Shown in pieces: positions 15,990-41,869 of a stretch of DNA of 64,000 nucleotides. The DNA lies in contig JAOTYL010000001.1 in assembly GCA_029861865.1 (NCBI GenBank), forward strand, positions 258,066 through 322,065, given 5' to 3'. The first letter of the stretch is position 1. Each line of letters opens with the position of its first letter. The position numbers and the translations under genes were made by a program. The notes under the pieces were generated by a model. That model had not been told where the DNA came from and searched no databases. It worked only from the letters and a program-made list of their open reading frames with translations. The DNA is from Myxococcales bacterium. GTDB lineage: Bacteria; Myxococcota_A; Polyangia; Polyangiales; Houyiibacteriaceae.

Positions 15990-16047
15990 CGGCCGAACGT
16001 GCTAGAGTCGCGCGGTGGCGCGGCGTTTGCGTCTAGGAGGATCGACT

Positions 16048-21622: not shown

Positions 21623-21638
21623 ATCTGATCGCGTTGGT

Positions 21639-23562: not shown

Positions 23563-24190
23563 TCACTGTCCGATATTGCCGCCTTTGGCCTGGAAGGCGA
23601 ATTCGAAGGTTTTGCCGACATCCTCCGCTGCAATCGTGCGTTCTTGGAAAACGTTGGTCTCGACCAGGTCAGTTACGTTGCCGTGACCTTCTTCGTTGCC
23701 AGTGCCGAGGCCACAGCAGTTGTAGTCACTGTAGACGCTGAGTTGTTGGGGTTCTTGCCCCACACCGCCTTCACCAGTAACTAACGCACAGATCTGCGGT
23801 CCGTTGGGCGCAGCCCCGCCATAGCCAAACTTACGGGTACCGGCGCTGTCAAACACATTGACGAAGAACGTCCATCCGTCACCTATGACGGTGCCGTTGA
23901 TGTCGAGCCCATTGAAGTCCTGTGTGTAAAGGACCGCTGGATCGTTGAGCACGACGTTGTCGTAGAAGTTCCCGGAACTGTCGAAGTTCGACGCGTTCGT
24001 CTGGAAGCCAAACTGCAGGATATGGCCTACGAGGTCTTGGGTGATCACCAGGGGGAGCGTGAAGCCGCCCCAGCTATCCGGAAGGTTCGTCGTATCTTGA
24101 GTGTTGGATGCGCTCACGCTGAAACCGGCTAGGGGGTCCAGCGTCTTGATGAACGCGTTGGCCGTCGGGGCCGGCACGCAGAAGCCGGCG
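23563..24190 (-). repeat. Inverted duplication, copy 2 (C-terminal module of P2)
   Basis: Near-exact counterpart, on the other strand, of 14998-15628. The two copies face each other across about 8 kb that hold GH17, CBM9-like, ppc and two further GH17 genes. Confidence 0.8.
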
Positions 24191-25830
24191 CTACAGGTGC
24201 CGGTGTCGTTTTCGCACGCGTTGGTGTTGTTCGATGTCTCGCAGGTTCCTGCGTTGCACACCGGGTCGATACACTCGTTGCCAGTGGCCGGGCAGTCCCC
24301 ATCCACCGTGCATTCTGCGTTTGGCACGCAATTGCCCTGCCCGTCGCAGGTTCCGTTTCCGCCGTCGCACAGGTCGGTGTTGTTCGATGTCTCGCAGGTT
24401 CCTGCGTTGCACACCGGGTCGATACACTCGTTGCCGGTAGCCGGGCAGTCCGCGGGCACCGTGCATTCTGGGTTCGGGACGCAGAGCCCTTCGTTGCAAG
24501 TGCCGGCGCCGCCTGGCCCAAAGGTGACCGAGACGTTGTCGAAGTATGCATTGACTGCACAGCCCGGTTCTGCTCCGCAGATGGCCGCCAGCTGCAGTGT
24601 CACACCACCGCTGACGTCAGGGCCCGTGGTCGTCTCGAAGGAATAGGTGGTCCAAGTATCACTCGGGAAAAGTGGGTTGCCGCCGAGTATTTCACTACTG
24701 GACGTGCCCCCGCCGGCGATCTCGCCGAACAACTCGGCAAACACAACGCCGCCAGCGCCTTCGAGCGAGCCAAACAGGTCGAACGAAATGCTGATTGGGC
24801 TGTTGGGCGTCACAATCCCGATGCCAATGTTGGCCTGCTTGATGAGTGGGTTTGCCGGAGCACCAGCTGTGGCCACGTTGCCCGACCATGAACCACCATT
24901 GGCCTGCGCCATCGTCGCCTCACAGGTCCCATTGTTAGGACCAGTACAAAACTGCGTCCAACCATCGAGATTACCGGTTTCGAAATCGCCGTTGGTGGTC
25001 AGTTCAGGGCCCGCGTCACACGCGTTGGTGTTGTTCGAGGTTTCACACTCTCCGGTCTCCGGATTGCAAGAGTCGTCTGTGCACGGGTTGCCGTCGTCAC
25101 AGTCGACGTTCTCACAGAGGTTGACCCCAGGACACGTGACGTCGAAGCTCTTGGTCTTGTCACACGCCGGGTCGCCGTCGCTGGCTATTACGGAGACGGT
25201 TTGGGTTCCGTTGGCGTCATCACAGGTGTAGGTGGTCAACTGCGCAGATGGATCTACGAAGCTTCCGCCTGTGGCCGTCAGCGCCGTGGACACTGGATCG
25301 CCGTCCGCATCGCCCACCAAAACAGTGACTGTCGATCCTTCTGGGGGCACTTCATCGGGCACCACATTCAAGAAGTACAGTCGTGGACAGTTGTTGGCTG
25401 GGACCTCCTCAAATGTCGCATCGATATCGACAGTGCCGAGCAGCTCCTGTCCGTCCCCGAGACACGTCAACACGATGTTGACTTTGACCGTCTCGTTTAC
25501 CACTACCGTAAAGTCCGCAGAACCCGTACAGAGCGGAGCGCCTGCGTTGTCGAACGCGGTCAGCGTTACTTTGCAGGGTCCCTCAGGCAGGTCCATGATC
25601 GCAGCCCAGACGGGCGGATCCTGTTCGTCGTTGACATTGAACTGGCCGTTCAGGGTGACCCCCGATTCACAAACCACTTCGAAACTCACGGCCGTGACGT
25701 TGGTGTTTCCAATAATCAGGTTGACACTGACACTGCCGGTCTCGCTCGAGCCCCCGGTTTCGCCAGAACAGCCCGCAACAAATGCCGCCGCCGTCATGAC
25801 GAACGCGGCTAGTACAGATACTCGTTTCAT
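23563..25830 (-). CDS. Modular lipoprotein: N-terminal beta module, CBM4/9-like domain, Cys-rich repeats, permuted CBM-like module (P2)
   Basis: A 755-residue lipoprotein (lipobox VAGC, Cys21). Order: beta module shared with the GH17 at 21639 (34-235); a Cys-rich unit; a canonical CBM4/9-type jelly roll (about 275-430) from ELTTNGDFETGNLDGWTQF to AYFDNVSVTFG; Cys-rich repeats (435-545); and the C-terminal module (about 555-755) shared with P1, P3 and P4. The C-terminal module carries the FYDNVVL strand before the DFNGLD...GDGW strand, opposite to the canonical domain in this same protein. No catalytic site is seen. It is preceded by a perfect 21-bp palindrome (25875-25895) that matches the one in front of the GH1 operon, so it is likely part of the ROK regulon. 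Probable surface glucan-binding protein. Confidence 0.88.
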   Translation of the reverse strand: MKRVSVLAAFVMTAAAFVAGCSGETGGSSETGSVSVNLIIGNTNVTAVSFEVVCESGVTLNGQFNVNDEQDPPVWAAIMDLPEGPCKVTLTAFDNAGAPLCTGSADFTVVVNETVKVNIVLTCLGDGQELLGTVDIDATFEEVPANNCPRLYFLNVVPDEVPPEGSTVTVLVGDADGDPVSTALTATGGSFVDPSAQLTTYTCDDANGTQTVSVIASDGDPACDKTKSFDVTCPGVNLCENVDCDDGNPCTDDSCNPETGECETSNNTNACDAGPELTTNGDFETGNLDGWTQFCTGPNNGTCEATMAQANGGSWSGNVATAGAPANPLIKQANIGIGIVTPNSPISISFDLFGSLEGAGGVVFAELFGEIAGGGTSSSEILGGNPLFPSDTWTTYSFETTTGPDVSGGVTLQLAAICGAEPGCAVNAYFDNVSVTFGPGGAGTCNEGLCVPNPECTVPADCPATGNECIDPVCNAGTCETSNNTDLCDGGNGTCDGQGNCVPNAECTVDGDCPATGNECIDPVCNAGTCETSNNTNACENDTGTCSAGFCVPAPTANAFIKTLDPLAGFSVSASNTQDTTNLPDSWGGFTLPLVITQDLVGHILQFGFQTNASNFDSSGNFYDNVVLNDPAVLYTQDFNGLDINGTVIGDGWTFFVNVFDSAGTRKFGYGGAAPNGPQICALVTGEGGVGQEPQQLSVYSDYNCCGLGTGNEEGHGNVTDLVETNVFQERTIAAEDVGKTFEFAFQAKGGNIGQ
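25135..25790 (-). repeat. Direct duplication of the N-terminal lipoprotein module, copy 2
   Basis: Counterpart of 22690-23340 on the same strand; see the protein descriptions of the two lipoproteins for the module content. Confidence 0.75.
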
Positions 25831-26211: not shown

Positions 26212-27714
26212 TCATTGCGCCGCCTGAACGGCACCGCGCCGCCGCTCTAGCTCGACACGGACTTCATGAGCCTTTTCTTCGGTGATCTCGTACGAGGCGA
26301 CGATCCAAATGGCGACGGCGGAAGAAATCATCGGTACGAAGATATCGAACAGGCGCATCCACAGGAGTGTCGCGTCGGTTTGGGCCCCCTCGAGCGCTAC
26401 GTCGAAGCCGGTTGCTTCGAGTAGGATGCCGCCACCCGCGAGCGCCGCAGCCATTCCGAGCTTGACCACCCACCAGTAGATGGACCCAAACATACCTTCC
26501 CGACGCTCCTTTGTTTCGATCTCATCGAGGTCGACTACGTCGGCGATCATGGAACCCATCAGGGTGAAAAGTCCGCCGAGGCCAAACGCCATCAAGGGAG
26601 CAGGTAGGAGGAGCAGCAATGGGTGCTCCGGATCGTAGCAAAACCACTTCAGACCGTAGCCGACGATGGAGACCCCTGTCGCTACGTAAAACGCGCGCCG
26701 CTTACCGATCTTGGTGGCGAGCCAAGTGATGAACACGATGACCGCGAAGGTACCGACTGCCGAAATGGTGCCCGAGTAACCGACGTACTCTGCGCCCAAG
26801 ACTTTGTCGCCCCCGAACACGTAGTAGATGATCACGTAGAACTGAAACGAGGAGATCAACATGAACCCGTTGAACACCAAGAAGGTCGCGGCGCAGAGCT
26901 TCACGAACGGTCGAAAGCGAAAGGTGGCGGCGAAACCCTTGAAGAACTTGATCATGTTGTTGACGAGCGGGTTTCGTCGGTCGCTACCTTCAGCGTTGAC
27001 CTGCGCACCGAGCTCGACGTCGCGCAGGAATGCTTCGCCAGTTATCCGATCGATATTGAACGGCTCTCGCAAGAAGATCGCCGGCAGGATGCCGATGCCG
27101 GCCGTCAGCACCCCGATCGCGATGGCCAGTCCCGCTGCCCCGGTCACCATATTGTCGAAAAACGGCTCGTACTGCATCACGAGTAGGAACCAAGGAGAGA
27201 TGACGTACGCAAGCTGACTGAAGAAGTTCTGCACACCCATCAGTCGAGTGCGTTCGTGATAGTCGGGCGTGAGCTCGAACCCGAGTGCGACCCAAGGCGT
27301 CGCGAAGACCGTGTACGCCAGGTAGAAAATCAACGAGACAGCGAGAAAGAACCAAAAATAGAAGCTCTGGCTTCGCCCTTCGGGCAACTGCCAAAGCAGG
27401 GCGTAGATCAGGCCTGCTGCGATGGCACCCACAAATATGTACGGCCGACGCCGTCCCCACTTCGACCGCGTGTGGTCGGAAATGTAGCCCATCAATGGGT
27501 CGGTAAAGGCGTCCGTAAGCCGCGGTAGCGCGCCGAGAAGGCCCACGAGCGCCGGGCTCATACCAAGCCCGAGGTTCAACACGATTATCATGCCGCCACT
27601 CGCGGCGGCCAGCAGGTTGTTTACAAAACCCCCAAAGCCGTAGATCAGCTTGTGCGGCATTGAGATGCGGTCTTGGGGGGCCGTCTCGTAGTGCTTCGAC
27701 GCGGAAGCGGTCAC
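26212..27714 (-). CDS. GPH-family sugar:cation symporter (MFS)
   Basis: A 500-residue, 12-helix transporter of the glycoside-pentoside-hexuronide:cation family. It opens MPHKLIYGFGGFVNNLLAAA, has the GPH signature region PRLTDAFTDPLMGYISDHTR-like and SKWGRRRPYIF, and a long central loop near residues 225-265. GPH carriers import oligosaccharides or glycosides with H+ or Na+. The start is GTG 27714, which overlaps the GH16 stop in the sequence GTGA, a typical coupling signal; an internal ATG (M19) is the alternative. As third gene of the ROK-GH16-GPH operon it is the best candidate for inner-membrane uptake of glucan oligosaccharides. Confidence 0.93.
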   Translation of the reverse strand: MTASASKHYETAPQDRISMPHKLIYGFGGFVNNLLAAASGGMIIVLNLGLGMSPALVGLLGALPRLTDAFTDPLMGYISDHTRSKWGRRRPYIFVGAIAAGLIYALLWQLPEGRSQSFYFWFFLAVSLIFYLAYTVFATPWVALGFELTPDYHERTRLMGVQNFFSQLAYVISPWFLLVMQYEPFFDNMVTGAAGLAIAIGVLTAGIGILPAIFLREPFNIDRITGEAFLRDVELGAQVNAEGSDRRNPLVNNMIKFFKGFAATFRFRPFVKLCAATFLVFNGFMLISSFQFYVIIYYVFGGDKVLGAEYVGYSGTISAVGTFAVIVFITWLATKIGKRRAFYVATGVSIVGYGLKWFCYDPEHPLLLLLPAPLMAFGLGGLFTLMGSMIADVVDLDEIETKERREGMFGSIYWWVVKLGMAAALAGGGILLEATGFDVALEGAQTDATLLWMRLFDIFVPMISSAVAIWIVASYEITEEKAHEVRVELERRRGAVQAAQ

Positions 27715-28559
27715 TGAGGGCGCTCGAAGATACGGACGTAGTCGACGAGCATCTCGGCTGGGAAGACCGTGTCCGAGGGGCTTTGGGCGGCGCCGCCCAC
27801 AGCCAGATTCAAAAGCACGAAGAACTCGTGATCAAACACCCAGTTTCCCCGTCCGCTTACCTCGGAGCTGTTGACGATTCTGTAAACTTGGGAATCGACG
27901 GAGAACGTGATGCGGCCGGGGTCCCACTCGACGGCAAAGACGTGGAAGTCATCGGCGAAGGACTCACCGTCGGGGAGCCGAAAAGCCGTGGTGATCGGTG
28001 CAGCTCCGAAATAACCCGGCCCGTGAAGGGTGCCGCTGGCCACTTCTGGCTCCTGCCCGAAAAGCTCCATCACGTCGATCTCGCCGCAGTCAGGCCAACC
28101 CACCTCGCTGAAATCTGCGCCGAGCATCCAAAACGCGGGCCAAAGGCCTTGGCCCTCGGGGAGCTTGATGCGCGCTTCGAATCGGCCGTATTTCTGCTCG
28201 GCTTTACCTTCGGTCTTGATGCGGGCCGAGGTGATCGAACCGTCCCGCTTCCCACACGGCGGGTTTGGACACAGTGCCGAAATCACGAGATTGCCGCCCT
28301 CTACACGAACATTGTCCTGGGAAGTCGTGTACTCCTGCCACTCGTCATTGCCCCATCCTTCGTTGTCGGGGCCGTAACCGGTCGCGATCGTCCAGAGCTC
28401 AGATGAAGGTGACGTACCTGAATCGAACTCGTCGGCCATGGTGAGGACCCAACGCTCGGGTGGGCTGACGACCTTGTCGGAGGATCCGCAACTGGTGGCG
28501 AGCGCGCCGACTGCGACGCCGATCATCACCACGCACAGAGTACGTATGGTCCGCATCAT
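27711..28559 (-). CDS. GH16 family endo-beta-glucanase (laminarinase-type), lipoprotein
   Basis: A 282-residue lipoprotein (MMRTIRTLCVVMIGVAVGAL, Cys24) with one GH16 jelly-roll. Catalytic motif GEIDVMELFG gives nucleophile Glu160, Asp162 and acid/base Glu165 (E-x-D-x2-E, without the extra residue of the beta-bulge type). The pattern NDEWQEYTTSQDNVRVEGG, ARIKLPEGQGLWPAFWMLG and HVFAVEWDPGRITFSVD is that of bacterial endo-1,3-beta-glucanases. Start ATG 28559 overlaps the ROK stop (ATGA) and the 3' end overlaps the GPH start (GTGA). It should cut beta-1,3 (or mixed-linkage) glucan at the cell surface or in the periplasm. Confidence 0.93.
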   Translation of the reverse strand: MMRTIRTLCVVMIGVAVGALATSCGSSDKVVSPPERWVLTMADEFDSGTSPSSELWTIATGYGPDNEGWGNDEWQEYTTSQDNVRVEGGNLVISALCPNPPCGKRDGSITSARIKTEGKAEQKYGRFEARIKLPEGQGLWPAFWMLGADFSEVGWPDCGEIDVMELFGQEPEVASGTLHGPGYFGAAPITTAFRLPDGESFADDFHVFAVEWDPGRITFSVDSQVYRIVNSSEVSGRGNWVFDHEFFVLLNLAVGGAAQSPSDTVFPAEMLVDYVRIFERPQ

Positions 28560-29794
28560 AGAGCTCCTATCGATTCTGCGTGGAATAGGGAAGGTGTTTC
28601 CAGAGCGGCCTCCAAAGCAAGCGTTGCGGCGCCCACCGCAACGCCCCACTCATTTAGTCCGCTGACTCGGATCTCGGCATTACCGATCGACGCGGACAAA
28701 GACCGGCCGCGAATGGTCCTGTTCACAGCATCGAGCAGCAGGTCGCCCGCGCGTGCGATGCCGCCTCCAAGGACCACCGCCTTCGGGTTGAGGAGGTTGA
28801 GCAGGTTGGCGACGCCGACGCCGAGCTTATCGCCGGCGTACTGAACTATTTCGACGAACATCGGATCGCCATCCAACGCTGCGTTGACGAGTTCGTCAAT
28901 ACTCCCAGGTGGTGGGCGGTCCGAGCCGCTTGCGCGCAACTTGTCTTTCGCTCGTTCGAGAAGAGCAGGCGCGCCGATAAACGTGGTTAGGCACCCCTTG
29001 AGGCCACAGATGCATTGGGGCCCGTTCGAGTCGATGGAGGTGTGGCCGATTTCGCCCGCGATGCCGCCGCTACCTCGAAAGATGCGCCCGTTGATGATCA
29101 GGCCAGCACCGATTCCGGTCGCGACCTTGATGTACGCGAGATCTTTACCGGAGGAGCCGGCGCCCCACCAAAGCTCGGCCAACGCCCCCAGGTTAGCATC
29201 GTTATCGACGAACACAGGTCGCTTGAAGCTTTCGTACAGATGGGTGGCGATGTTATAGCCCGCCCATTTTGGGACGATCAGCGGCAGGAGCTCCCCCGGC
29301 CGTTCGTCGTCCACAGGACTTGGAACAGCCACACCGATGCCGAGCACCTGGGATCGCTCCACGCCGTCCGCTACGAGGACGGAGCGCACCGCCATCGTCA
29401 TTTTTTTCAGAGCGACTTCTGGTTCATCGCGGACCGGAGCCGGCGCAGACCAAGAGGCCCTGACGTTGCAGCGCAAGTCCGTCAGGACACACGAAATGTG
29501 CGTTGCGCCAAGCTCGATCCCGACAATGAAGCTCGATTGGTCCTGGAACTCGAGGATAACGGGGCGGCGTCCGCCGCTCGAAACCCCATTGCGTGCTTCC
29601 CTTACCAAGCCCGTGCCCAGCAGGTCGTTCACGATGGCTGACACCGTCGAACGACTCAAGCCGGTGCGTCGCGCCAATTCTGCGCGGGAAATCTCTCGTT
29701 CCTTCCAGAGTAGGTTCAGGATCAGTCGGTTGTGTCGCGCCCGAATCGCGGACGCCCCAAATACTTCGTGGGTGGTTTGAAGAGCACTTTTCAT
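28556..29794 (-). CDS. ROK-family transcriptional repressor
   Basis: A 412-residue NagC/XylR-type regulator. Winged helix N-terminus: ARHNRLILNLLWKEREISRA, ELARRTGLSRSTVSAIVNDL. The ROK sugar-kinase-like part has IVGIELGATHISCVLTDL, the DNDANLGALAE motif and a zinc site, GHTSIDSNGPQCICGLKGC (His plus Cys residues). Such regulators sense a sugar or glycoside and leave the DNA. It heads the minus-strand operon ROK-GH16-GPH with 4-bp overlaps and faces the GH1 operon. The palindrome at 30033-30053 and its copy at 25875-25895 are its likely operators. Confidence 0.94.
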   Translation of the reverse strand: MKSALQTTHEVFGASAIRARHNRLILNLLWKEREISRAELARRTGLSRSTVSAIVNDLLGTGLVREARNGVSSGGRRPVILEFQDQSSFIVGIELGATHISCVLTDLRCNVRASWSAPAPVRDEPEVALKKMTMAVRSVLVADGVERSQVLGIGVAVPSPVDDERPGELLPLIVPKWAGYNIATHLYESFKRPVFVDNDANLGALAELWWGAGSSGKDLAYIKVATGIGAGLIINGRIFRGSGGIAGEIGHTSIDSNGPQCICGLKGCLTTFIGAPALLERAKDKLRASGSDRPPPGSIDELVNAALDGDPMFVEIVQYAGDKLGVGVANLLNLLNPKAVVLGGGIARAGDLLLDAVNRTIRGRSLSASIGNAEIRVSGLNEWGVAVGAATLALEAALETPSLFHAESIGAL

Positions 29795-30006: not shown

Positions 30007-30053
30007 TTGACATATTTCACCTCGATTGATACTTGGTTCGTTGCTCGAACAAA
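30007..30053 (+). promoter_or_regulatory. GH1-operon promoter with ROK operator (site 2)
   Basis: A consensus -35 TTGACA is at 30007-30012; the -10 is weaker (GATACT at 30028-30033 or TACTTG at 30030-30035). The palindrome TTGGTTCG-TTGCT-CGAACAAA (30033-30053, 7 of 8 arm positions paired) covers the -10/+1 region, where a bound repressor would block transcription. It is the same motif as at 25875-25895. Confidence 0.72.
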
Positions 30054-30104
30054 CCGAGTGATCCGTCCGCTTCGCCGGGCGTTTGCACTGGAGATCCTAG
30101 TGCC

Positions 30105-31481
30105 GTGACTGAAGCCTTTCCCAACGGCTTTATTTGGGGTGTCGCCACCTCGGCCTTCCAAATTGAAGGCGCCCACGATATCGATGGCAGAAGGCTATCG
30201 ATCTGGGACACCTATGCGGAGCAACCGGGGTTCATTGCAGACGGAAGCAACGCCAAAGTCGCGTGCGACCACTACCACCGCTACGCAGAGGACATCGGAT
30301 TGATGAAGTCCCTCGGCGTGGGCGCGTACCGATTCAGCATCGCATGGCCTCGGATTCTTCCGACTGGGCGAGGTGCCGTGAACACTGCCGGGCTCGATTT
30401 CTACGACCGTCTGGTGGACGCTCTGTTCGCGGCGGGGATCGCGCCGTGGGCCACGCTCTACCACTGGGACCTTCCGCAGGCGCTCGAAGACGAGGGCGGC
30501 TGGACCAACCGTTCAACGGTCGACGCGTTCGTGGAGTTCACCGACGCTGTGAGTGAGCGTCTTGGCGATCGCGTGACGCACTGGATGACGCTTAACGAAC
30601 CGTGGTGTGCGAGCGTGCTCGGATATGCCCAAGGTGACCACGCCCCTGGGAAAAGAAGCTGGCCTGATGCCTTGGTTGCATCGCACCACTTGCTGCTGAG
30701 CCACGGGCGGGCCGTGCCGGTGATTCGTCAGAACGCGCCTCGAGCCAAAGTGGGCATCGCGCTCAACGTGTCCGAGTGCGAACCTGCGTCGCCGAGCGAG
30801 GCCGACCAGATTGCAGCTCGACAGTTTGACGGCGAGCTCAACCGCTGGTTCCTAGACCCGATCTATTTGGGCCGCTACCCGCAAGACGTGATCGAGTACC
30901 ACGAGCGCGAAGGTCGGCTGCTCGATGGCATGCACTTCGTGAAGCCTAATGACCTCGACGAGATCAAGGCCCCAATCGACTTCCTGGGCGTCAACCACTA
31001 CAGCCGCGCCGTCGTGCGCAGCGCCAAGATTCCCGAGGCTGAGAACGAACCGAGAACCATTGCGGTTCCTGACCCCGCCAAGCGGACCGACATGGGCTGG
31101 GAAGTCTATCCCGAGGGGCTGACGCATAGCCTCGTGCGATTGCACACCGATTATAGGCCGGGCTCGTTGGTCGTCACCGAAAACGGCGTCGCTTACGCGA
31201 CCGGGCCGGGGCCGGACGGGTCTGTGCAGGACACTCGGCGCTGCGACTATGTAAAAAGCCACTTGCGGGCGTGTCTTGCCGCGATCGACGCGGGGGTTCC
31301 TCTGCACGGTTACTTCTTGTGGTCGCTGCTCGACAATTTCGAATGGGGCTTTGGGCTTTCGAAGCGCTTTGGTATCGTCTGGGTCGATTTTGAAACCCAG
31401 GAACGCGTGATCAAAGCGTCGGGGCACATGTACCGCCGCATCATCCAAAATAACAAGCTCCCCGAGGAGCGGGCGGCATGA
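30105..31481 (+). CDS. GH1 family beta-glucosidase
   Basis: A 458-residue cytoplasmic enzyme from GTG 30105 (MTEAFPNGFIWGVATSAFQI), the family-typical start; the frame can be extended to 30033 but those bases form the operator. Acid/base Glu165 in MTLNEPW and nucleophile Glu359 in LVVTENGVA; other GH1 marks are YRFSIAWPRILPTG and DNFEWGFGLSKRFG. No signal peptide. It releases glucose from the non-reducing end of beta-linked oligosaccharides. First gene of a four-to-five-gene + strand operon whose members overlap by 4, 20 and 10 bases. Confidence 0.96.
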   Translation: MTEAFPNGFIWGVATSAFQIEGAHDIDGRRLSIWDTYAEQPGFIADGSNAKVACDHYHRYAEDIGLMKSLGVGAYRFSIAWPRILPTGRGAVNTAGLDFYDRLVDALFAAGIAPWATLYHWDLPQALEDEGGWTNRSTVDAFVEFTDAVSERLGDRVTHWMTLNEPWCASVLGYAQGDHAPGKRSWPDALVASHHLLLSHGRAVPVIRQNAPRAKVGIALNVSECEPASPSEADQIAARQFDGELNRWFLDPIYLGRYPQDVIEYHEREGRLLDGMHFVKPNDLDEIKAPIDFLGVNHYSRAVVRSAKIPEAENEPRTIAVPDPAKRTDMGWEVYPEGLTHSLVRLHTDYRPGSLVVTENGVAYATGPGPDGSVQDTRRCDYVKSHLRACLAAIDAGVPLHGYFLWSLLDNFEWGFGLSKRFGIVWVDFETQERVIKASGHMYRRIIQNNKLPEERAA

Positions 31482-34400
31482 GAATCACGGTTGCGATGCT
31501 CTTCCTTCTTTGGCCTGCACTCGCAACGGCACAACAGTTCGGAGAAGAAACCCGGGTACCCACAGAGTCGGGCTTACCCGAACCGCCAGAGGGACCCCCA
31601 CCGCCCGGGGCACCCCGACCGCCCGGGGCACCCGCACCGCCGACCGACGACTTCGCACCGCCACCCGCATCCGCACGGCCAGCGGCACCCCCACCGGGAT
31701 CCGCACCGACTACCGCAAAGACGGACGGTCCCAATGTCGTCAAGGTCCACAAAGACGAGCGTGGTTACCAGCTTCTGATCGACGGCAAGCCCACGATGGT
31801 TTTCGGGATGAACTGGGGGTACAAGCCGATCGGCGAGAACTACACCTACGACTTTTGGGGCAAGCCCGATGAGGTGATCATCGAAGCGCTCGACAACGAA
31901 ATGACGTTGTTGAAGGACATGCACGTCAATGTCATTCGGCAGTACGTGAACGCCCTCGGGGGCATTCCTCCCCGATGGATCACCTACATCTACGAGAAAT
32001 ACGGGATCTATACGGTCATCAACCACGACATGGGCCGCTACGGGATGAACATCGACGGCGTCTGGGTCAATCCGGTCGACTACTCCGACGAGCGCTTCCG
32101 CGCGCTGATGAAAGAGCAGGTCACCGAGCTGGTTGCCCGGTACAAAGACACGCCCGGCCTGTTGATGTGGCTGCTCGGCAACGAGAACAACTACGGGCTC
32201 TACTGGAAGTCCAGCGAGATCGAAGACTTGCCCGAGGCCAAACAGGGGGATGCACGCGCAACCTTCTTGTATTCCTTGTTCGGGGAGGTCACCGATCTCA
32301 TTCACTCCCTCGACGAGAACCACCCGGTGTCGATGGCAAACGGCGACCTCGGGTTCCTCGAGGTCATCAAAAAGGAATGCCCCAATATCGATGTGTTCGG
32401 CAGCAACGTCTACCGCGGCGCGTCGTCTCGAGACATCTTCGAACGTGTCGAGAAAGAGCTCGGCCTTCCGTTCATGTACACCGAGTTTGGCTCCGACGCC
32501 TTCAATGCGAAAACCGGGCGAGAAGATCAGATTGCTCAGGCGCAATACCTGAGATCCCTTTGGCAGGAGATCTACGAGCAGAGTTACGGCAAGGGCAGGG
32601 TGGACAACGCCATCGGCGGCTTGATCTTTGAGTGGAGCGACGAGTGGTGGAAGTACAAGCAAGAAGTCAACCTCGACAAACACGACACCACCGCGTCGTG
32701 GGCGAACGATGCGTACCCACACGACTTCGTCGAGGGCGAAAACAACATGAACGAAGAGTGGTTCGGGATCGCAGCAATTGGGAAACCGAATGTAGACGGT
32801 ATCTACAAGGTTTATCCGCGAGCCGCGTACTACCTGTTGCAGGAAGCCTTCACTCTCGATCCCTACGCTCCGGACACCAGCATCGAGAAGATCCGCCAGC
32901 ACTTCGGGAGGCTTGGGCCAAGGTCATACAACGACACCGAGTCCAAAATCGCGCAGCTCGAGTGGGCCCGCGTCAGCAGACTGCGAATTGACTTCGATAC
33001 CTTCACCACCGGCGGCCGGCAATTGAACGAGCCGCTGAGGAATGAGACGCGCTTCGACCATACCGAATCGTTCTATTTCGGCGTCGAGGTCAAGCCGTTT
33101 TCCGGGGTGCGAGCGGAGGTGGTGGTCAACGCGCTGGGAAACGTAGCCTTGAATCCGATCAACGAGATCTTCTACGAAAACCGGGGCATTCCAGTCGGAA
33201 TTACAGATGTGGAGGGTGAGGTTCGCGACCTCTCGGGATTCAACCGCTTCCAGGTCTACGAAGCCGCCTTCGACTGGGACAGCAAGTACTTTTTGCTCGA
33301 GAGCTTCTTTCGCGGCGAGGGGCACTACCACTGGGGCTACGAAGGAGATTTTTTCGGTCTCTACCCAGAGGTGCACCAGCAGTACGATATCGACATTTAC
33401 AACGCGAACGTCCCACTCGGCGTCGTGTTCTCCGGTAAGAAGAAAGTCGACGGCCTCAAGGTCGCGTACGGTCCTGAGCTCTGGTGGGGCGCGAACCCAA
33501 CGGTGATGGCCAAGTACTACCGAATCTTCGGGGACTTCAAGTTCGCGGTGATGCACCAAGAGGACATCGCCCAACAGGCACCGGGGATTGCGAGCTCGGT
33601 GATACCACAGCCGAAAAGCCGAAAGAGCACTTTGTACTTTGGCTACGCGAGCCGTCGGATCACGTTGGAGCTCGGCGGCATCACGGCACGTTCAAACTTC
33701 ATCGGCGACGCGTACCAAACCGCGCGCCAAGCAGACGGGCCGACCTATTTGGACTCGGGCTACTACATCCGCAACAACACCGTGCGGTTTGCCGATACGC
33801 TCGGCGCCAAGGCCAAGCTCACGCTCAACGCGGCGCCGTTCTTTTGGTACGTGCAGGGAGGCTACCGAGGACTCGTCAGCGACGGCGGTGCGGACCAGAC
33901 GATGACGATTACCGGTTGGTCGCTCAAGGAAAGCGGCCAAGGCAATCACTGGGCAGTGTCGTCGGGGCTGGGGTACTACGTGGGCAAGTTCATGTTGGGG
34001 CCCAATGTCTTGGTGCAAAGGCCCCTCGAAGGCCCGCTTCCGTTCATCCCCGATCTCTTCGACGCGGACACCGGCACCTACTATCCGGGGGTCCAGGGCA
34101 GAAACCAGCTCCAAGATCCGTTCTGGGTTCGCTCGAACAGGGAGACGTATGGCTTCGAGCTGTTGGTGGGCTTCGACCCGACGCCGGCGACACCCTTGTG
34201 GGCTTGGGACAACCTGGAGCGCGAAGACGCCCGTTTCAGCGCGGCGCTCGATTTCGTGTACAAGATTCTACCGACGGCCCAAGACGCCGCCGTGGCCATC
34301 AACCAAGACCTCATTCTGTTCGCGTTCCTGACCAGCGCGCCGGCTAGGAACCTTTGGGACGTGAGTCTGCGAACAGTCACCAACTTCACCTACAAGATGC

Positions 34401-34774
34401 GTTTGGTGAACTGGATCTATGTAGGCCAGGGTCAAGCCAATGGCGACAGCGTTCGTACGGTGACGCGGTTCGGCACCTACGGCTGGTTCAAGTACGGCAC
34501 GTTCACCATCAACTACTTCCTGAAGTTCGACGATTGGGGGCCGTATGACTACTACAAGGACTTCAACCTGACGTTCCCGCTGCAAGTAATGTTGGACTTC
34601 TCGTACGCGGTAGAACCGCAAAAGATGTACGCGCCCGCCTCCACGCGATTCGGAGTGCGGGGGCAGTTCCGCAATCTCGACCAATTCTCCGGTCGGTACC
34701 TTATCGATCCTCAAGATCCCGGCCGCAAGGGTCGCGAATGGGAGGTCAAAACTTATGTTCAGTTTGTATACTAA
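31478..34774 (+). CDS. Clan GH-A glycosidase fused to an outer-membrane beta-barrel
   Basis: A 1098-residue exported protein. Order: signal peptide (MRITVAMLFLLWPALATAQQ); Pro-rich linker (about 28-82); TIM-barrel glycosidase (about 95-460) with GMNWGYKP, acid/base Glu236 in MWLLGNENNYG and nucleophile Glu336 in PFMYTEFGSDA, 100 residues apart as usual in clan GH-A (GH2/GH5-like; family not fixed); then about 600 residues of alternating beta strands with aromatic girdles, ending EWEVKTYVQFVY, the terminal aromatic residue expected of an outer-membrane beta-barrel. ATGA overlap with the GH1 stop shows coupling. The fusion would tether a glycosidase to its own pore. Nothing suggests a TonB box. 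The reading of the C-terminal part as a barrel is inference from strand pattern. Confidence 0.82.
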   Translation: MRITVAMLFLLWPALATAQQFGEETRVPTESGLPEPPEGPPPPGAPRPPGAPAPPTDDFAPPPASARPAAPPPGSAPTTAKTDGPNVVKVHKDERGYQLLIDGKPTMVFGMNWGYKPIGENYTYDFWGKPDEVIIEALDNEMTLLKDMHVNVIRQYVNALGGIPPRWITYIYEKYGIYTVINHDMGRYGMNIDGVWVNPVDYSDERFRALMKEQVTELVARYKDTPGLLMWLLGNENNYGLYWKSSEIEDLPEAKQGDARATFLYSLFGEVTDLIHSLDENHPVSMANGDLGFLEVIKKECPNIDVFGSNVYRGASSRDIFERVEKELGLPFMYTEFGSDAFNAKTGREDQIAQAQYLRSLWQEIYEQSYGKGRVDNAIGGLIFEWSDEWWKYKQEVNLDKHDTTASWANDAYPHDFVEGENNMNEEWFGIAAIGKPNVDGIYKVYPRAAYYLLQEAFTLDPYAPDTSIEKIRQHFGRLGPRSYNDTESKIAQLEWARVSRLRIDFDTFTTGGRQLNEPLRNETRFDHTESFYFGVEVKPFSGVRAEVVVNALGNVALNPINEIFYENRGIPVGITDVEGEVRDLSGFNRFQVYEAAFDWDSKYFLLESFFRGEGHYHWGYEGDFFGLYPEVHQQYDIDIYNANVPLGVVFSGKKKVDGLKVAYGPELWWGANPTVMAKYYRIFGDFKFAVMHQEDIAQQAPGIASSVIPQPKSRKSTLYFGYASRRITLELGGITARSNFIGDAYQTARQADGPTYLDSGYYIRNNTVRFADTLGAKAKLTLNAAPFFWYVQGGYRGLVSDGGADQTMTITGWSLKESGQGNHWAVSSGLGYYVGKFMLGPNVLVQRPLEGPLPFIPDLFDADTGTYYPGVQGRNQLQDPFWVRSNRETYGFELLVGFDPTPATPLWAWDNLEREDARFSAALDFVYKILPTAQDAAVAINQDLILFAFLTSAPARNLWDVSLRTVTNFTYKMRLVNWIYVGQGQANGDSVRTVTRFGTYGWFKYGTFTINYFLKFDDWGPYDYYKDFNLTFPLQVMLDFSYAVEPQKMYAPASTRFGVRGQFRNLDQFSGRYLIDPQDPGRKGREWEVKTYVQFVY

Positions 34775-35360
34775 GTTCTCTTTGCTGGGACTCGTGCTGG
34801 TCGCCGTCGCGTGCGGGGATGACCCCGAATATGAATTCGGCTTCAACATCACCGGGATTGAGTTCGAGTTCTTCAAGCCGACTGAGGGCATTCACCCGTC
34901 CAAAGTCACCCTGCAAAACCCCCGAAATCCGTTCCGCGAGTTCGGCGTCAGCGACGACACGAAGTTCGACATTCTAGCTAATGGCGGCAACGCGGGAGCT
35001 TTTTACGCGTGGGCCACCGTGCTGGCGACCATACCCATCGGAGAAAACCAGTTCTTCACGGCTATCAAGCTCCGCGATATTTACCGGGCCAACGAGGTTG
35101 CGGAGGAAGATCGAGAGACGGTCCGACAGATGGCCATCGCCGGCTTTCAGACCGTGTTGGACTGCTTTCCGGAATCGGTTTTGTTTGATGCCACGGGAAC
35201 GTTTTCCTTCAGGTTCGCGACGCTCGCGTACTTGGAAATCCTAGACCTCGGGGGGGTGGTTCAGGGCGACTGGATCTTGGTGGAGGACTCTTTGGGGAAT
35301 CCCACTGCCATAGAGAGCACGAGGATCGATACGCTAAATCGAGATGTCCAATGCTTTTGA
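34755..35360 (+). CDS. Lipoprotein of unknown function in the GH1 operon
   Basis: A 201-residue predicted lipoprotein (MFSLYTKFSLLGLVLVAVAC, Cys20) that overlaps the barrel-fusion gene by 20 bases and the next gene by 10. The mature part begins GDDPEYEFGFNITGIEFEFF and has a helical centre (EEDRETVRQMAIAGFQTVLD). No known domain was recognised. The tight overlaps on both sides imply that it works with the GH-barrel protein, perhaps as its periplasmic plug or assembly partner; that role is inference. Confidence 0.8.
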   Translation: MFSLYTKFSLLGLVLVAVACGDDPEYEFGFNITGIEFEFFKPTEGIHPSKVTLQNPRNPFREFGVSDDTKFDILANGGNAGAFYAWATVLATIPIGENQFFTAIKLRDIYRANEVAEEDRETVRQMAIAGFQTVLDCFPESVLFDATGTFSFRFATLAYLEILDLGGVVQGDWILVEDSLGNPTAIESTRIDTLNRDVQCF

Positions 35361-36073
35361 AACACCAACACCTCGCTTGGACCGCTGGGCTGCTTGCCTT
35401 CAGTCTCGTAGGCGGCTGCGCGCCCGACCTGGGAACACCGGACTACTCGAGTCAGGTCGGCCTTCGAGAGCCGATCAACCCATTCCCGCCCATCCCGCCC
35501 GATCCGTTCCAACCAGGCGACGAGCGGCTGTCGGTGGGCTATTTCTACGAAACTGGCCGTTCGGAAACGATTCCGATCAACACCGTGACCACCAACTACT
35601 TCATCTTCGTCGTTGACGAGAATCGGGCGGCCGAGACGCTGACGTACTCTCAGAGCACATCGAGCGATCGGATCGAGGGACTGGAGTCCGTTGAGATCAC
35701 GCTGAACGATCGAACGTTTTGGGGTGGTGGCATCATTTGGGAAGAGCCCATCGACCTGTCGGAATGGACGACGATGTTCGTCGCCTTCAAGTCGAGCGAC
35801 GAATCTTTCGAAAGGTTTGAAATCAAGCTTCAGTACGAGGTGGGCAGGCTACCGAACGAACCACCCCCGGAACCCCTGGAGGTCAGCCTCAATCCGAGCA
35901 CGTACGGCTACACCAACGACGGGGAATGGCATTTCCTGCAGATCCCTCTCCAGGATGCCATCGATCTTGGTTGGGATCCGAGTAACGCTCGTTCACCATT
36001 CATTGTTGGCGGCTCGCCCAACCGAGTCGGAGACGTAATGCTGATCGACAATTTGTATTTCACGAAAGACTGA
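35351..36073 (+). CDS. Lipoprotein with CBM-like beta-sandwich domain
   Basis: A 240-residue lipoprotein (LVGGC lipobox, Cys23) with a Pro-rich linker (PFPPIPPDPFQPGD) and a beta-sandwich of about 170 residues: WTTMFVAFKSSDESFERFEI, GEWHFLQIPLQDAIDLGWDP, and VGDVMLIDNLYFTKD at the C-terminus. That pattern (Trp strand, 'WH.l.IPL', terminal 'DN.YF') is usual for CBM-like or ExoP-like galactose-binding folds. Probably binds glucan at the surface. Starts within the previous gene (ATG at 35351, 10-base overlap). Confidence 0.8.
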   Translation: MLLKHQHLAWTAGLLAFSLVGGCAPDLGTPDYSSQVGLREPINPFPPIPPDPFQPGDERLSVGYFYETGRSETIPINTVTTNYFIFVVDENRAAETLTYSQSTSSDRIEGLESVEITLNDRTFWGGGIIWEEPIDLSEWTTMFVAFKSSDESFERFEIKLQYEVGRLPNEPPPEPLEVSLNPSTYGYTNDGEWHFLQIPLQDAIDLGWDPSNARSPFIVGGSPNRVGDVMLIDNLYFTKD

Positions 36074-36169: not shown

Positions 36170-36988
36170 ATGAAGAAGAAAGCACTATTTACGATTCTAT
36201 TTGCGACGCTAGCGCTCTATGGGTGCGGAGATGGCGAGAATGGTACGGGAGGCTCAGGCGGTACCGCAGCTACGGGCGGTAGCGGAGGCACGGGCGGTAG
36301 CGGCGGAGGCATAGGTGGTAGCGGCGGCGGCGCCGGTAGCGGCGGTACGGGCGGTATGCCGGCATGCGACAGCACAGCCAATGCGTTCATCAAGACGCTG
36401 GACCCGGACGCCGACTTCATGGTGAGCGCGTCCGACATTGTAGATACGACGGACCTTTCGACAGACTGGCAGAGGCTCACGCTCTCCCTCCAGATCACCG
36501 CAGACCCAGACCTCGTAGGCCACATCCTGCAGTTTGGCTTCCAGACGAACGCGTCGGACTTCGGAGATTCAGGTGTGTTTTACGACAACGTCGAGCTCGC
36601 CGATCCCGCGGTCGTTTATACACAGAACTTCAATAATCTCGACATCGGCGGCACCGTGATAGGTGACGACTGGCTGTATTTCGTCAATGTGTTTGACAGC
36701 GTCGGTACCCGTAAGTTTGGCTATAACGAAGGCCTCTTTGCGCCCAACGGCCCGCAGATCTCGGCGCTAGTTACCGGGGAGGGCGGTCCGACGCAAGAAC
36801 CCCAACAACTCAGCGTCTTCAGTGACTACAACTGCTGCCAGACGACGAACGAAGGGCACTTCAACGGCACCGACCTAGTCGAGACCAACGTTTTCCAAGA
36901 ACGCACGATTGTGGCGGGCGATGTCGGCACGACTTTTGTTTTCAGCGTCGACGCCAAACGCGGAAACATCAACCTAGGGTGTCCCTGA
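36170..36988 (+). CDS. Gly-rich linker lipoprotein with permuted CBM-like module (P3)
   Basis: A 272-residue lipoprotein: signal with YGCG lipobox (Cys19 region), a Gly-Gly-Ser/Thr linker of about 45 residues, and the shared C-terminal module (ANAFIKTLDPDADFMVSASD ... DAKRGNINLGCP). The first half ends VFYDNVELADPA and leads straight into VVYTQNFNNLDIGGTVIGDD. Ends with Cys-Pro. It is the shortest, simplest member of the four and so the cleanest view of the module. It is followed by a strong hairpin at 37011-37035 and then the phosphorylase gene. Confidence 0.85.
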   Translation: MKKKALFTILFATLALYGCGDGENGTGGSGGTAATGGSGGTGGSGGGIGGSGGGAGSGGTGGMPACDSTANAFIKTLDPDADFMVSASDIVDTTDLSTDWQRLTLSLQITADPDLVGHILQFGFQTNASDFGDSGVFYDNVELADPAVVYTQNFNNLDIGGTVIGDDWLYFVNVFDSVGTRKFGYNEGLFAPNGPQISALVTGEGGPTQEPQQLSVFSDYNCCQTTNEGHFNGTDLVETNVFQERTIVAGDVGTTFVFSVDAKRGNINLGCP

Positions 36989-37035: not shown

Positions 37036-37108
37036 GCCCGCGCCTTCTCATACGGTATTGCGCGTAGCGGCCGGGTTCGGGTGAGTATCCCGCCGGACAA
37101 CGGATTGT

Positions 37109-37124
37109 CTCGAGGCGCCTCGAG
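37109..37124. promoter_or_regulatory. Perfect 16-bp palindrome before the phosphorylase start
   Basis: CTCGAGGCGCCTCGAG is a perfect palindrome 19 bp upstream of the ATG at 37144. It lies inside the longer candidate frame that would begin at GTG 37081, and argues for the downstream start. Possible regulator site. Confidence 0.45.
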
Positions 37125-37143
37125 CCAGCGGAAACCATTAGAC

Positions 37144-40100
37144 ATGAATCGACCTTCCCTGAATGACGATGAGGTGTCCGGCGAGTTTCTGACTCTCGGA
37201 GGGGAGCGATACTACGCCATCCGCAACGTCGACAAGATGCCCCCGTTCTTCATCAACCTGGTCTCCGATTGCGACCACTGGTTGTTCATTTCCTCAACCG
37301 GGGGGCTAACCGCCGGTCGGGTGTCACCCGAGACCGCGCTTTTCCCCTACATCACGGTCGACAAGATTCACGAAAGCAATCCGCACACCGGTAGCAAGAC
37401 GCTGATCAGCACGGTGGCAAACGGGCAGCGGCACGACTGGGAACCGTTCAACAGGGCGCACGATGGTCGCTACTCGACCAGCCGGAACCTCTACAAGAAC
37501 ATCTTGGGCAACAAGCTGTGCTTTGAAGAGATCAACCATGACCTGCAGTTGGCGTTCCGTTACTGCTGGCTTACCAGCGACATCTACGGGTTCGTACGTC
37601 GATGCGAGATCGAGAATCTAGGCAAGCAAGATTGCAAGGTGGAGTTGATCGATGGCCTGCAGAACATTCTACCGGCCGGGACTCCGCGATTCGCCCAGAC
37701 AAACACAAGCAATTTGGTCGACGCGTACAAATGGAATGAGCTGGTCGAGGACAAGGGGCTCGGCTTATTTACACTCTATTCCGGAATCACCGACAGAGCC
37801 GAGCCTTGCGAGTCCCTGAAGGCTACGACCGTATTTTGCCTTGGCCTTCAGGGAGACAAGGTGCTGCTCTCGGCGACGCAGCTCGAACAGTTCCGCCGCG
37901 GCGCGTCCCTAACACAGGAGGTCCACAAGCGTGGCATCCGCGGGGCTTATTTCGTCCACGGGTCGCTCGATCTCGCACCGCAGACAGCCCAGCGCTGGCA
38001 GCTCGTGGCCGACATGGAGCAGAGTCAGGCGCAGGTGGTCAGCCTGCTCCATCAGCTCCGTGACCCCGCAGTGGTGGCGGAGGCGATCACCCAATCCGTA
38101 GCCAAGGGCTCGGACGAGCTGGCTTGCATCGTGGCTGGCGCGGACGCATTCCAGACGACTGCCGAGGAAAACGTGTCGGCACACCATTATGCGAACGTGC
38201 TCTTCAACGTGCTGCGCGGCGGTACCTTCGACGATCAGTATCGGGTGTCCTCACGGTATTTCCGGAGAACCATCGAGGCGTTCAATCGCGACGTGTACGT
38301 GCGCCATGAGGCAGCGCTCAACGCGTTGCCCGACAAGTTGCACTACTCGGACCTCCTGTCGACCATCAAGGATCTGGGTGACCCACAACTGGAGCGCCTG
38401 TGCCGTGAGTATCTGCCGATCACCTTTGGTCGCCGGCATGGTGACCCCAGCCGACCCTGGAACCAGTTTGCAATCAAGCTGAAAGACGACCGAGGCGACA
38501 AGCTGCTCTCCTATCAAGGCAACTGGCGTGACATTTTTCAGAACTGGGAGGCTCTGACTTTCAGCTTTCCGGAGTTTGTCGAAAACGTGATCGCCAAGTT
38601 CCTCAACGCTACCACAGTAGACGGTTACAACCCTTACCGAATAAGCAATGAAGGGTTCGACTGGGAAGTCGAAGAGCCTGACGACCCCTGGAGCTACATC
38701 GGCTATTGGGGCGATCACCAGATCATCTATCTTTTGAAGCTGCTGGAGCTTTCCAACCGGTTCCATCCGCAGCGCCTCGTTGCCTTGTTGCGCCAGCCTG
38801 TGTTCAGCTACGCCAATGTTCCTTACCGAATAAAGACGTTTGAAAGCGTGCTTGAGAATGCCAAGAGCACCGTCGTTTATGACTGGGAAGCAGCGCAGCG
38901 GATCGAGCAGCGAGTGGCTGACAAGGGCGCCGATGGCAAGTTGATTCTCGATGCCAGCGGTGAGGTATACCAGGTCAACCTGTTCGAGAAACTGTTGGTG
39001 CCGCTGCTGAGTAAGCTTGGCAACTTCGTGGTGGACGGAGGCATCTGGCTCAACACCCAACGTCCGGAGTGGAACGACGCCAACAACGCCCTCGTAGGTC
39101 ACGGGCTTTCCATGGTGACCCTGTACCACATGCGTCGATACGTCGGTTTCCTTCAACGTTTGCTCGCGCAAGAGTCGGGTTCAGTGAGCATGTCGCGAGA
39201 GGTAAGTGAATGGGTCGGTGAAACTGGCGCGGCGTTGAGCGAGGTTCGACCGAAGCTACAACGTGCGCCGGCGAGTGCCGAGATACGATACCGGTTGCTC
39301 GTTCGGCTCGGACGGGCAGCGTCCGACTACCGACAGACGGTCTACCGGCAAGAGGCGTTCTCCGGCATGGTGCAGCAACCAGTGTCACAGGTTAACGAGA
39401 TGCTAGACGACGCCCTGGCCGCGATCGACCACAGCATCCAGTGCAATAAGCGTGAGGATGGTATGTACCATGCCTACAACCTGCTCCATTTGAAATCGGA
39501 GGCGATCGAAGTCGAACGCCTTTACGCGATGCTCGAAGGCCAGGTTGCCGCACTTAGTTCTGGGGCCATTGCACCGGCACAAGCAGTCGATGTGCTCGAA
39601 ACATTGTTCGAGAGCGATATGTACAGGGCCGATGTGCGCACCTTCATGTTGTATCCGGACCGTCCGTTGCCAGGTTTTCTGGAGAAGAACCGTATCCCAG
39701 CCGAAGCGCTCGAATCGATTCCGCTCATCCAGAAGATGTTGGAGGAGGGCGACGGCAGCATCGTTCTGCGCGACGAAGACGGGTGCTACCGTTTCAACGC
39801 AGACTTACGCAACCTGAGCGATCTGATCGCTCGGCTGGACAATTTGACGCCAGTGCACGGCGATGAAGTTCAACACGCCCGCCAACCTTTGCTGGGGCTT
39901 TATGAGCGGGTTTTCAACCACAAAGCGTTTACCGGGCGTTCGGGCACCATGTTCGGTTTTGAGGGATTGGGATCTGTCTATTGGCACATGGTCTCCAAGT
40001 TGTTGCTGGCAGTACAGGAGAACTTTTTTGTCGCGCTCCAAGAGCATACAGACGAAGAAACCTGCCACCAGCTGGGTCGATTGTATTACCGCGTCCGCGA

Positions 40101-40593
40101 GGGCCTCGGATTCAACAAAACCCCTGCCGAATACGGTGCCTTCCCGACAGACCCCTACTCCAACACGCCCAAACACGCCGGCGCCCAGCAGCCGGGTATG
40201 ACCGGCCTGGTCAAAGAAGAAGTCTTGACCCGCTTCGGTGAGCTCGGCGTGCGCGTCAGCGAGGGTGCGGTGAACTTTGAATTGGGTTTGCTGCGGGTGC
40301 GCGAATTTCTCGCGAGTCCACGAACCTTTCGTTTTCTGGACGTGGATGGGCAGTGGCAGGAGCTCACGGTGCCAAAATCAGGGCTGGCATTCACCTGGTG
40401 TCAGGTCCCAATCGTGTATCGTCTGGATGATTCCGCCGAGCCGGCGGTGACTGTCACCCTGGATGATGGCAGTTGCCTGACCCCGAGCGGACTGACGCTG
40501 CCCACCGAGCTGAGCGCCGAGCTGTTCATGCGAAGTGGGCGTATTCGTCGAGTCGAGCTCGTCGTGAGAAGAAGCCAGTTGTTTACGGATTAA
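37144..40593 (+). CDS. GH94/GH149-type beta-glucan phosphorylase
   Basis: About 1149 residues, cytoplasmic (no signal). It belongs to the inverting phosphorylase clan of cellobiose phosphorylases: an N-terminal beta-sandwich (ALFPYITVDKIHESNPHTGS), a helical linker and an (alpha/alpha)6 barrel with the general acid Asp645 in PEWNDANNALVGHGLS. GH94 enzymes are usually near 800 residues; a length near 1100 and the 'EWNDANNALVG' motif fit GH149 beta-1,3-glucan phosphorylase better, and the neighbouring GH17/GH16 genes agree. It would release glucose-1-phosphate from beta-1,3-oligoglucans and save ATP. Start ATG 37144 (alternative GTG 37081); no strong ribosome site for either. Confidence 0.85.
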   Translation: MNRPSLNDDEVSGEFLTLGGERYYAIRNVDKMPPFFINLVSDCDHWLFISSTGGLTAGRVSPETALFPYITVDKIHESNPHTGSKTLISTVANGQRHDWEPFNRAHDGRYSTSRNLYKNILGNKLCFEEINHDLQLAFRYCWLTSDIYGFVRRCEIENLGKQDCKVELIDGLQNILPAGTPRFAQTNTSNLVDAYKWNELVEDKGLGLFTLYSGITDRAEPCESLKATTVFCLGLQGDKVLLSATQLEQFRRGASLTQEVHKRGIRGAYFVHGSLDLAPQTAQRWQLVADMEQSQAQVVSLLHQLRDPAVVAEAITQSVAKGSDELACIVAGADAFQTTAEENVSAHHYANVLFNVLRGGTFDDQYRVSSRYFRRTIEAFNRDVYVRHEAALNALPDKLHYSDLLSTIKDLGDPQLERLCREYLPITFGRRHGDPSRPWNQFAIKLKDDRGDKLLSYQGNWRDIFQNWEALTFSFPEFVENVIAKFLNATTVDGYNPYRISNEGFDWEVEEPDDPWSYIGYWGDHQIIYLLKLLELSNRFHPQRLVALLRQPVFSYANVPYRIKTFESVLENAKSTVVYDWEAAQRIEQRVADKGADGKLILDASGEVYQVNLFEKLLVPLLSKLGNFVVDGGIWLNTQRPEWNDANNALVGHGLSMVTLYHMRRYVGFLQRLLAQESGSVSMSREVSEWVGETGAALSEVRPKLQRAPASAEIRYRLLVRLGRAASDYRQTVYRQEAFSGMVQQPVSQVNEMLDDALAAIDHSIQCNKREDGMYHAYNLLHLKSEAIEVERLYAMLEGQVAALSSGAIAPAQAVDVLETLFESDMYRADVRTFMLYPDRPLPGFLEKNRIPAEALESIPLIQKMLEEGDGSIVLRDEDGCYRFNADLRNLSDLIARLDNLTPVHGDEVQHARQPLLGLYERVFNHKAFTGRSGTMFGFEGLGSVYWHMVSKLLLAVQENFFVALQEHTDEETCHQLGRLYYRVREGLGFNKTPAEYGAFPTDPYSNTPKHAGAQQPGMTGLVKEEVLTRFGELGVRVSEGAVNFELGLLRVREFLASPRTFRFLDVDGQWQELTVPKSGLAFTWCQVPIVYRLDDSAEPAVTVTLDDGSCLTPSGLTLPTELSAELFMRSGRIRRVELVVRRSQLFTD

Positions 40594-41802: not shown

Positions 41803-41869
41803 TATGGTCCAACTAAACCACACGCGTTCGGAATCATCAATGCCGGCGCGACCGCCGGCCCCCCGTTGG

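Follow-up and report, generated by a model that had tools for sequence, protein, structure and literature searches.

Gene content of the locus

The window, the whole stretch of 64,000 nucleotides that was analyzed, belongs to a 736-kb contig. The genome measures 4.2 Mb, and the closest relatives that carry a name are MAGs of Myxococcota. A single uninterrupted frame of 1098 codons joins a GH158-like glycosidase to a predicted outer-membrane beta-barrel, and is accompanied by the following genes and features.

16015-17007, plus strand: third GH17-like enzyme (HMM from relatives' GH17 neighbors)
20570-23384, minus strand: two GH17-like enzymes, 20570-21751 and 21639-23384 (HMM from relatives' GH17 neighbors)
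26212-27714, minus strand: MFS_2 (GPH-type) sugar importer (PF13347, 2.8e-61)
27711-28649, minus strand: GH16 endo-glucanase with lipoprotein signal (Pfam 5.8e-24; lipobox by eye)
28556-29794, minus strand: ROK-family regulator (PF00480, 1e-57)
30033-31481, plus strand: GH1 beta-glucosidase (Pfam 1.2e-162)
31478-34774, plus strand: fusion of GH158-like glycosidase and predicted outer-membrane beta-barrel, 1098 aa (Pfam, PDB, AlphaFold, Foldseek, about 30 full-length relatives)
31478-31729, plus strand: signal peptide (about residues 1-19) and Pro-rich linker to residue 84 (sequence; pLDDT<50 for residues 1-84)
31730-32875, plus strand: GH158-like TIM-barrel domain, residues 85-466 (Pfam, PDB searches, Foldseek, BuGH158 residues; PMC7157763)
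32966-34771, plus strand: predicted outer-membrane beta-barrel, residues 497-1098, about 26 strands, aromatic C-terminus (AlphaFold, Foldseek)
34755-35360, plus strand: partner lipoprotein 1, 201 aa, predicted helical core (invariant lipobox Cys; adjacent to fusion; model pLDDT 81)
35351-36073, plus strand: partner lipoprotein 2, 240 aa, probably carbohydrate-binding, Exop_C/CBM30-like (invariant lipobox Cys; Exop_C matches)
37081-40593, plus strand: GH149 1,3-beta-D-glucan phosphorylase (NF058639, 1702 bits, cut-off 1150; 6hq6)
41870-43198, minus strand: ABC sugar-binding protein near the locus (SBP_bac_1, 5.6e-40)

The three GH17-like enzymes scored 357, 110 and 101 bits with an in-house HMM. 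The fusion start overlaps the upstream GH1 gene, which ends at 31481, while lipoprotein 1 (start 34755) overlaps the 3′ end of the fusion and is itself overlapped by lipoprotein 2 (start 35351); because successive frames overlap, these four genes look translationally coupled. Four lipoprotein-like genes flanking the locus, at 13550-15628 (plus), 23563-25830 (minus), 36170-36988 (plus) and 40612-41823 (minus), have in common a domain some 200 residues long that runs from ANAFIKTLDP... to ...RTIVAGDVGTTF and also occurs in two other loci (L003, L004). They are probably surface glycan-binding proteins.

Domains of the fusion protein

An earlier note, made from the letters alone, had read a signal peptide, a linker, a clan GH-A barrel and a strand-rich C-terminus in this one frame, and the frame itself, Pfam, AlphaFold and Foldseek all bear that out. 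The Pro-rich linker is short or missing in most relatives. Pfam assigns the enzyme domain only a GH2 TIM barrel (Glyco_hydro_2_C, residues 139-345, above cut-off). Its best PDB sequence relatives in a single-sequence search are GH158 endo-beta-1,3-glucanases (9oro, 2.9e-9; 6pal, 5.1e-7), the same two entries lead a PDB profile search (6pal, 1.8e-11; 9oro, 8.5e-10), and ranks 1-6 in Foldseek are all GH158, with E-values down to 2.6e-14. Identity to GH158 is about 17% in the structural alignment. The domain is thus GH158-like: its model is a clan GH-A TIM barrel, to which GH158 comes nearest of all solved structures; identification as a GH2 beta-galactosidase was rejected, being weaker than GH158 in both sequence and fold. 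In BuGH158, N136, E137 and E220 are essential (PMC7157763). Asn235-Glu236 and Glu336 of the fusion align with these (Asn136-Glu137 and Glu220) and are invariant across 25 relatives from several phyla, so that the two catalytic glutamates had been numbered correctly in the earlier note; by this alignment Asn235-Glu236 would form the acid/base and Glu336 the nucleophile. The predicted substrate is beta-1,3-glucan.

Enzymes of this kind also occur without a barrel. A free GH158-like enzyme with a signal peptide lies between GH16 and LacI/GH149 genes in another locus (L028:1260-2570); there it takes the place of the fusion beside GH16 and GH149, which suggests that such a secreted enzyme can be of use with no barrel attached. 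More distant TIM-barrel relatives, in which no membrane barrel was detected, are found at L009:7182-8513 (minus), L013:13471-15366 (plus) and G000:C18:153337-153891.

The AlphaFold model of the fusion, built on a 25-row alignment (mean pLDDT 75.7), shows the TIM barrel followed by long up-and-down strands from residue 497 to 1097, and pLDDT is mostly 70-95 over residues 497-1098. With this part, Foldseek returned outer-membrane barrels, namely MOMP (1.8e-9), OmpF, AlgE, chitoporin, OccK, BtuB and FepA. These matches led to rejection of stacked beta-sandwiches for the C-terminal 600 residues, and the membrane barrel that had been proposed for them is supported. The C-terminal part is therefore predicted to be a porin-type membrane barrel. 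Strands counted by hand on the model, using loop parity, number 26. The even links between them have 2, 3, 6, 2, 3, 10, 2, 2, 20, 2, 2 and 9 residues and the odd links 13, 37, 35, 7, 18, 7, 6, 26, 40, 25, 7, 11 and 17 residues; the model thus has short turns on the periplasmic side and long loops outside, which is the classic pattern. A count of 24 is possible because strands 745-751 and 762-768 are weakly amphipathic. The final residue in complete sequences is F, Y, L or I. Given an even number of strands and a C-terminus in the periplasm, the model would place the N-terminal enzyme in the periplasm and not on the surface.

Strand alternation exceeded that of within-strand shuffles (0 of 5000), but the strands of the TIM barrel score nearly alike (2.03 against 2.19), so strand amphipathicity alone is no proof of a membrane barrel; the inward and outward composition of the barrel is circular, its sides having been assigned by hydrophobicity. 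None of 26 barrels (the fusion and its relatives) matched a Pfam or PDB sequence family, and no Pfam match to Plug (PF07715) or TonB_dep_Rec was found within the fusion protein. Conservation in the predicted outer loops equals that in the strands, which is not usual for outer-membrane proteins, and it is most marked in WWGANP and the loop HYHWGYEGDFFGL around residues 616-628; this would fit substrate binding or folding of the loops into the lumen.

Chitoporin, OccK, MOMP and AlgE are enzyme-free barrels of 16-18 strands. The fusion shares with them a single-chain membrane barrel with long outer loops and structural similarity; it differs in strand number, in carrying an enzyme and in showing no detectable sequence relation to them. 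In LptD-LptE, a 26-strand barrel with a periplasmic domain at its N-terminus is paired with a small lipoprotein. The predicted 26 or so strands, N-terminal domain and small lipoprotein here recall that arrangement by analogy only, since no sequence relation was found and the N-terminal domain and pathway are different.

Conserved partners, neighborhood and distribution

A scan of a genome collection found 30 loci with the fusion. Full-length copies occur in Myxococcota, Gammaproteobacteria, Zetaproteobacteria, Cloacimonadota and Bacteroidota, with 10 copies in 113 genomes of the window's phylum and 5 in 31 genomes of its family. About 30 other genomes have full-length fusions, 36-88% identical, which rules against a sequencing error and against two genes wrongly joined, the latter a possibility raised in the earlier note. 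Among Myxococcota no barrel was seen without the enzyme, as all ten barrel matches lie in frames of at least 960 aa, one of them broken. In one locus (L058, G117:C255) the fusion gene is broken: its barrel is divided between two frames, and a TAG is reported within it. In the tree, two groups are well supported, one of Pseudomonadota and Cloacimonadota and the other of Myxococcota and Bacteroidota. Within the window's own genus the fusion is present in 3 of 16 listed genomes, a patchy presence that fits an accessory nutrient locus.

The Bacteroidota records, from Persicobacter and Bacteroides finegoldii, are 46 and 45% identical to the fusion at 92% coverage, and the B. finegoldii copy is annotated 'glycoside hydrolase family 2 TIM barrel-domain containing protein'. 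Its locus (L062, NZ_OY725931.1) is a SusC/D-free beta-glucan locus consisting of the fusion, a CBM-type lipoprotein, GH16, a fimbrillin-family protein and BglX. The record is labeled a plasmid, yet it may be chromosomal because it carries rpsA and a valine--tRNA ligase gene.

The earlier note suggested that the two overlapping lipoproteins may be surface partners of the fusion, and as conserved partners both are upheld. Lipoprotein 1 lies directly downstream of the fusion in 29 of the 34 loci that have sequence there; it was not found beside the fusion in the other five (L007, L019, L020, L021, L054). In 17 aligned sequences its lipobox Cys is invariant and its conserved core, helical in the model (helices within 70-137), reads FYLWATALA..P.GENQFYTA..LH..Y....A.KAYRSVLDNF. 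It matched no known family and no fold at E<=0.001, with a faint TPR-like resemblance only. In Thiothrix, lipoprotein 1 has an inserted domain related to domains of the neighboring GH16 proteins. Lipoprotein 2 is present in 16 Myxococcota-type loci; another count, of 22, included related domains in other proteins. Exop_C was matched in 8 of 11 of its relatives (best 2.9e-5), and this weak resemblance to Exop_C/CBM30 suggests that lipoprotein 2 is probably carbohydrate-binding. In both Bacteroidota loci the gene after the fusion encodes a lipoprotein with domains of the Exop_C/CBM30 kind, followed by GH16. Pairwise identities correlate (r 0.95, 0.92, 0.88), which is expected from shared descent and speaks for co-inheritance only.

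The fusion belongs to loci for beta-1,3-glucan catabolism. Of 34 fusion loci, 32 encode one or more of GH16, GH17, GH1, GH30 and GH149, with GH16 in 28, GH149 in 19, GH17 and GH1 in 12 each, GH30 in 8, an MFS_2 importer in 14 and an SBP_bac_5-type binding protein in 9, all lower bounds because many contigs end early. (The GH16 figure comes from a clean recount, the first GH16 model having contained one MFS protein.) The fusion is constant across loci while the inner-membrane importer varies. Thiothrix and Cocleimonas loci add G6PD and 6-phosphogluconate dehydratase. In two Cloacimonadota loci (L011, L013), GH16-like proteins near the fusion bear type IX secretion sorting tails (Por_Secre_tail).

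With these catabolic neighbors, the description of the window as a beta-glucan locus lacking SusC/SusD also stood. No TonB receptor was found on the 736-kb contig, the three TonB-receptor barrels of the genome all being on other contigs, and SusD-like_3 (PF14322), the only SusD family sought, had no match in the genome; a susC-susD pair was accordingly not found. Among 32 genomes (the window's own and 31 further), none has a Plug-domain receptor on the contig of the fusion. These contigs include ones of 736, 443, 400, 257, 255 and 230 kb; among those of the 31 further genomes several are short, while others measure 160-443 kb. Nearly all genomes checked hold Plug-domain receptors elsewhere, and in a Leucothrix genome (L024) there was no Plug match at all.

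A candidate uptake route and its alternatives

We favor, with moderate confidence, the reading that the fusion is an enzyme-bearing, TonB-independent uptake porin for beta-1,3-glucan fragments, with the GH158-like domain in the periplasm. The 'cutting porin' of the earlier note, a protein that may both cut the polymer and let its products through, is in this form partly supported and refined. The polymer would first be cut by surface GH16 lipoproteins, and carbohydrate-binding lipoproteins would gather the fragments, which would then cross the outer membrane through the C-terminal barrel of the fusion. On the periplasmic side the GH158-like domain would trim fragments as they emerge; MFS or ABC importers would bring the products in, and breakdown there would be completed by the GH149 phosphorylase together with GH1, GH17 or GH30 enzymes. 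The partner lipoproteins may cap or plug the barrel or hand over substrate, and lipoprotein 1 in particular may act as a cap or plug, by analogy with LptE in LptD. Hydrolysis behind the pore could maintain a steep gradient, so that entry would run in one direction with no need of TonB. The fusion and its lipoproteins would thereby fill the role that a TonB receptor or SusC/D pair has in other beta-glucan loci. Against such a route count the five loci without lipoprotein 1, and the limits in size or affinity that energy-independent uptake would impose.

In the main rival reading, the barrel would anchor the GH158-like enzyme in the membrane or export it, thereby displaying it on the cell surface in the style of type V systems, and would import no sugar; we consider this rather unlikely. 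Signal peptide, enzyme and C-terminal barrel follow one another in autotransporters and PlpD, and the fusion matches them in this order, also within one chain. In Bacteroides, BuGH158 works at the cell surface (PMC7157763; PMC10229575), which supports display and counts against a periplasmic enzyme. However, neither the fusion nor the separate barrels gave an autotransporter or other type V Pfam match, no POTRA domain was seen, and the modeled barrel has about 26 strands by hand count, as opposed to the 12 or 16 of type V. Unlike PlpD-type proteins and autotransporters, the fusion also belongs to a catabolic locus with dedicated lipoproteins. Surface endo-glucanases are already provided there by the GH16 lipoproteins, and with the fusion serving for display, the locus would lack a way in through the outer membrane.

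Two further explanations keep the pore but change its direction or the part played by the enzyme. Export of a beta-glucan, by a machine like BcsC, AlgE or PgaA in which the enzyme trims outgoing chains and the helical lipoprotein is AlgK-like, is very improbable in our estimation. Exopolysaccharide systems do pair porins with glycosidases, and the barrel resembles AlgE among others while the enzyme part weakly resembles PslG (Foldseek); yet no glycosyltransferase or synthase appears among the neighbor families listed with more than one member (79 neighbor proteins), and the neighbors are catabolic enzymes, sugar importers, LacI/ROK regulators, G6PD and EDD. Some clan GH-A domains have turned into non-catalytic binders, and the enzyme domain of a true pore could serve mainly for tethered binding or gating, with hydrolysis unimportant. 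This seems quite improbable given that the two catalytic Glu and the Asn in front of Glu236 do not vary among the 25 relatives from different phyla, and that the GH domain is the most conserved region of the fusion (0.69 against 0.51-0.54).

Published beta-glucan loci differ from this arrangement mainly at the outer membrane. A survey of GH149 distinguished Type I clusters (ABC, no outer-membrane transporter), Type II clusters and Bacteroidetes PUL clusters (PMC5827456). Type II clusters, from Gammaproteobacteria, have a TonB receptor, a two-component regulator, GH16, GH17 and an MFS importer of PF13347 (PMC5827456), and are the nearest published layout. They share with the fusion loci the GH149 phosphorylase, GH16, GH17 and the PF13347 importer, whereas the fusion and lipoproteins, with ROK or LacI, stand here in place of the TonB receptor and two-component regulator. 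In B. uniformis, whose beta-1,3-glucan PUL relies on SusC/D for uptake, BuGH158 is a lipoprotein of the cell surface and carries an Ig-like domain (PMC7157763). That PUL likewise combines a GH158 endo-laminarinase having the same catalytic residues with GH16 and a beta-glucosidase, but BuGH158 is a separate protein whose TIM barrel is followed by the Ig-like domain, while here a membrane barrel follows. The earlier note knew of no named system with this layout; in the literature found (open-access papers only) the fusion is indeed undescribed, although the layout proved to be that of a widespread family, close to the Type II GH149 clusters.

It is an evenly balanced call whether these loci represent a new class of outer-membrane glycan importer, independent of TonB and SusC/D, in which a glycosidase in the pore trims fragments on their way through and a lipoprotein acts as plug or feeder; such a class would span no fewer than five phyla or classes, human-gut Bacteroides among them. 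In the loci cited, beta-glucans such as laminarin enter by SusC/D, by TonB receptors or through scavenging of small oligosaccharides. The fusion can serve as a marker for such loci, now hidden under the name 'GH2 TIM barrel-domain containing protein', and the B. finegoldii copy makes the proposal testable in a cultivable genus. If the proposal is true, this widespread fusion would give beta-glucans another way into Gram-negative cells, and would explain how beta-1,3-glucans could be used by bacteria that have few TonB receptors, among them Thiothrix, Leucothrix, Thiomicrorhabdus, Mariprofundus and the organism of the window.
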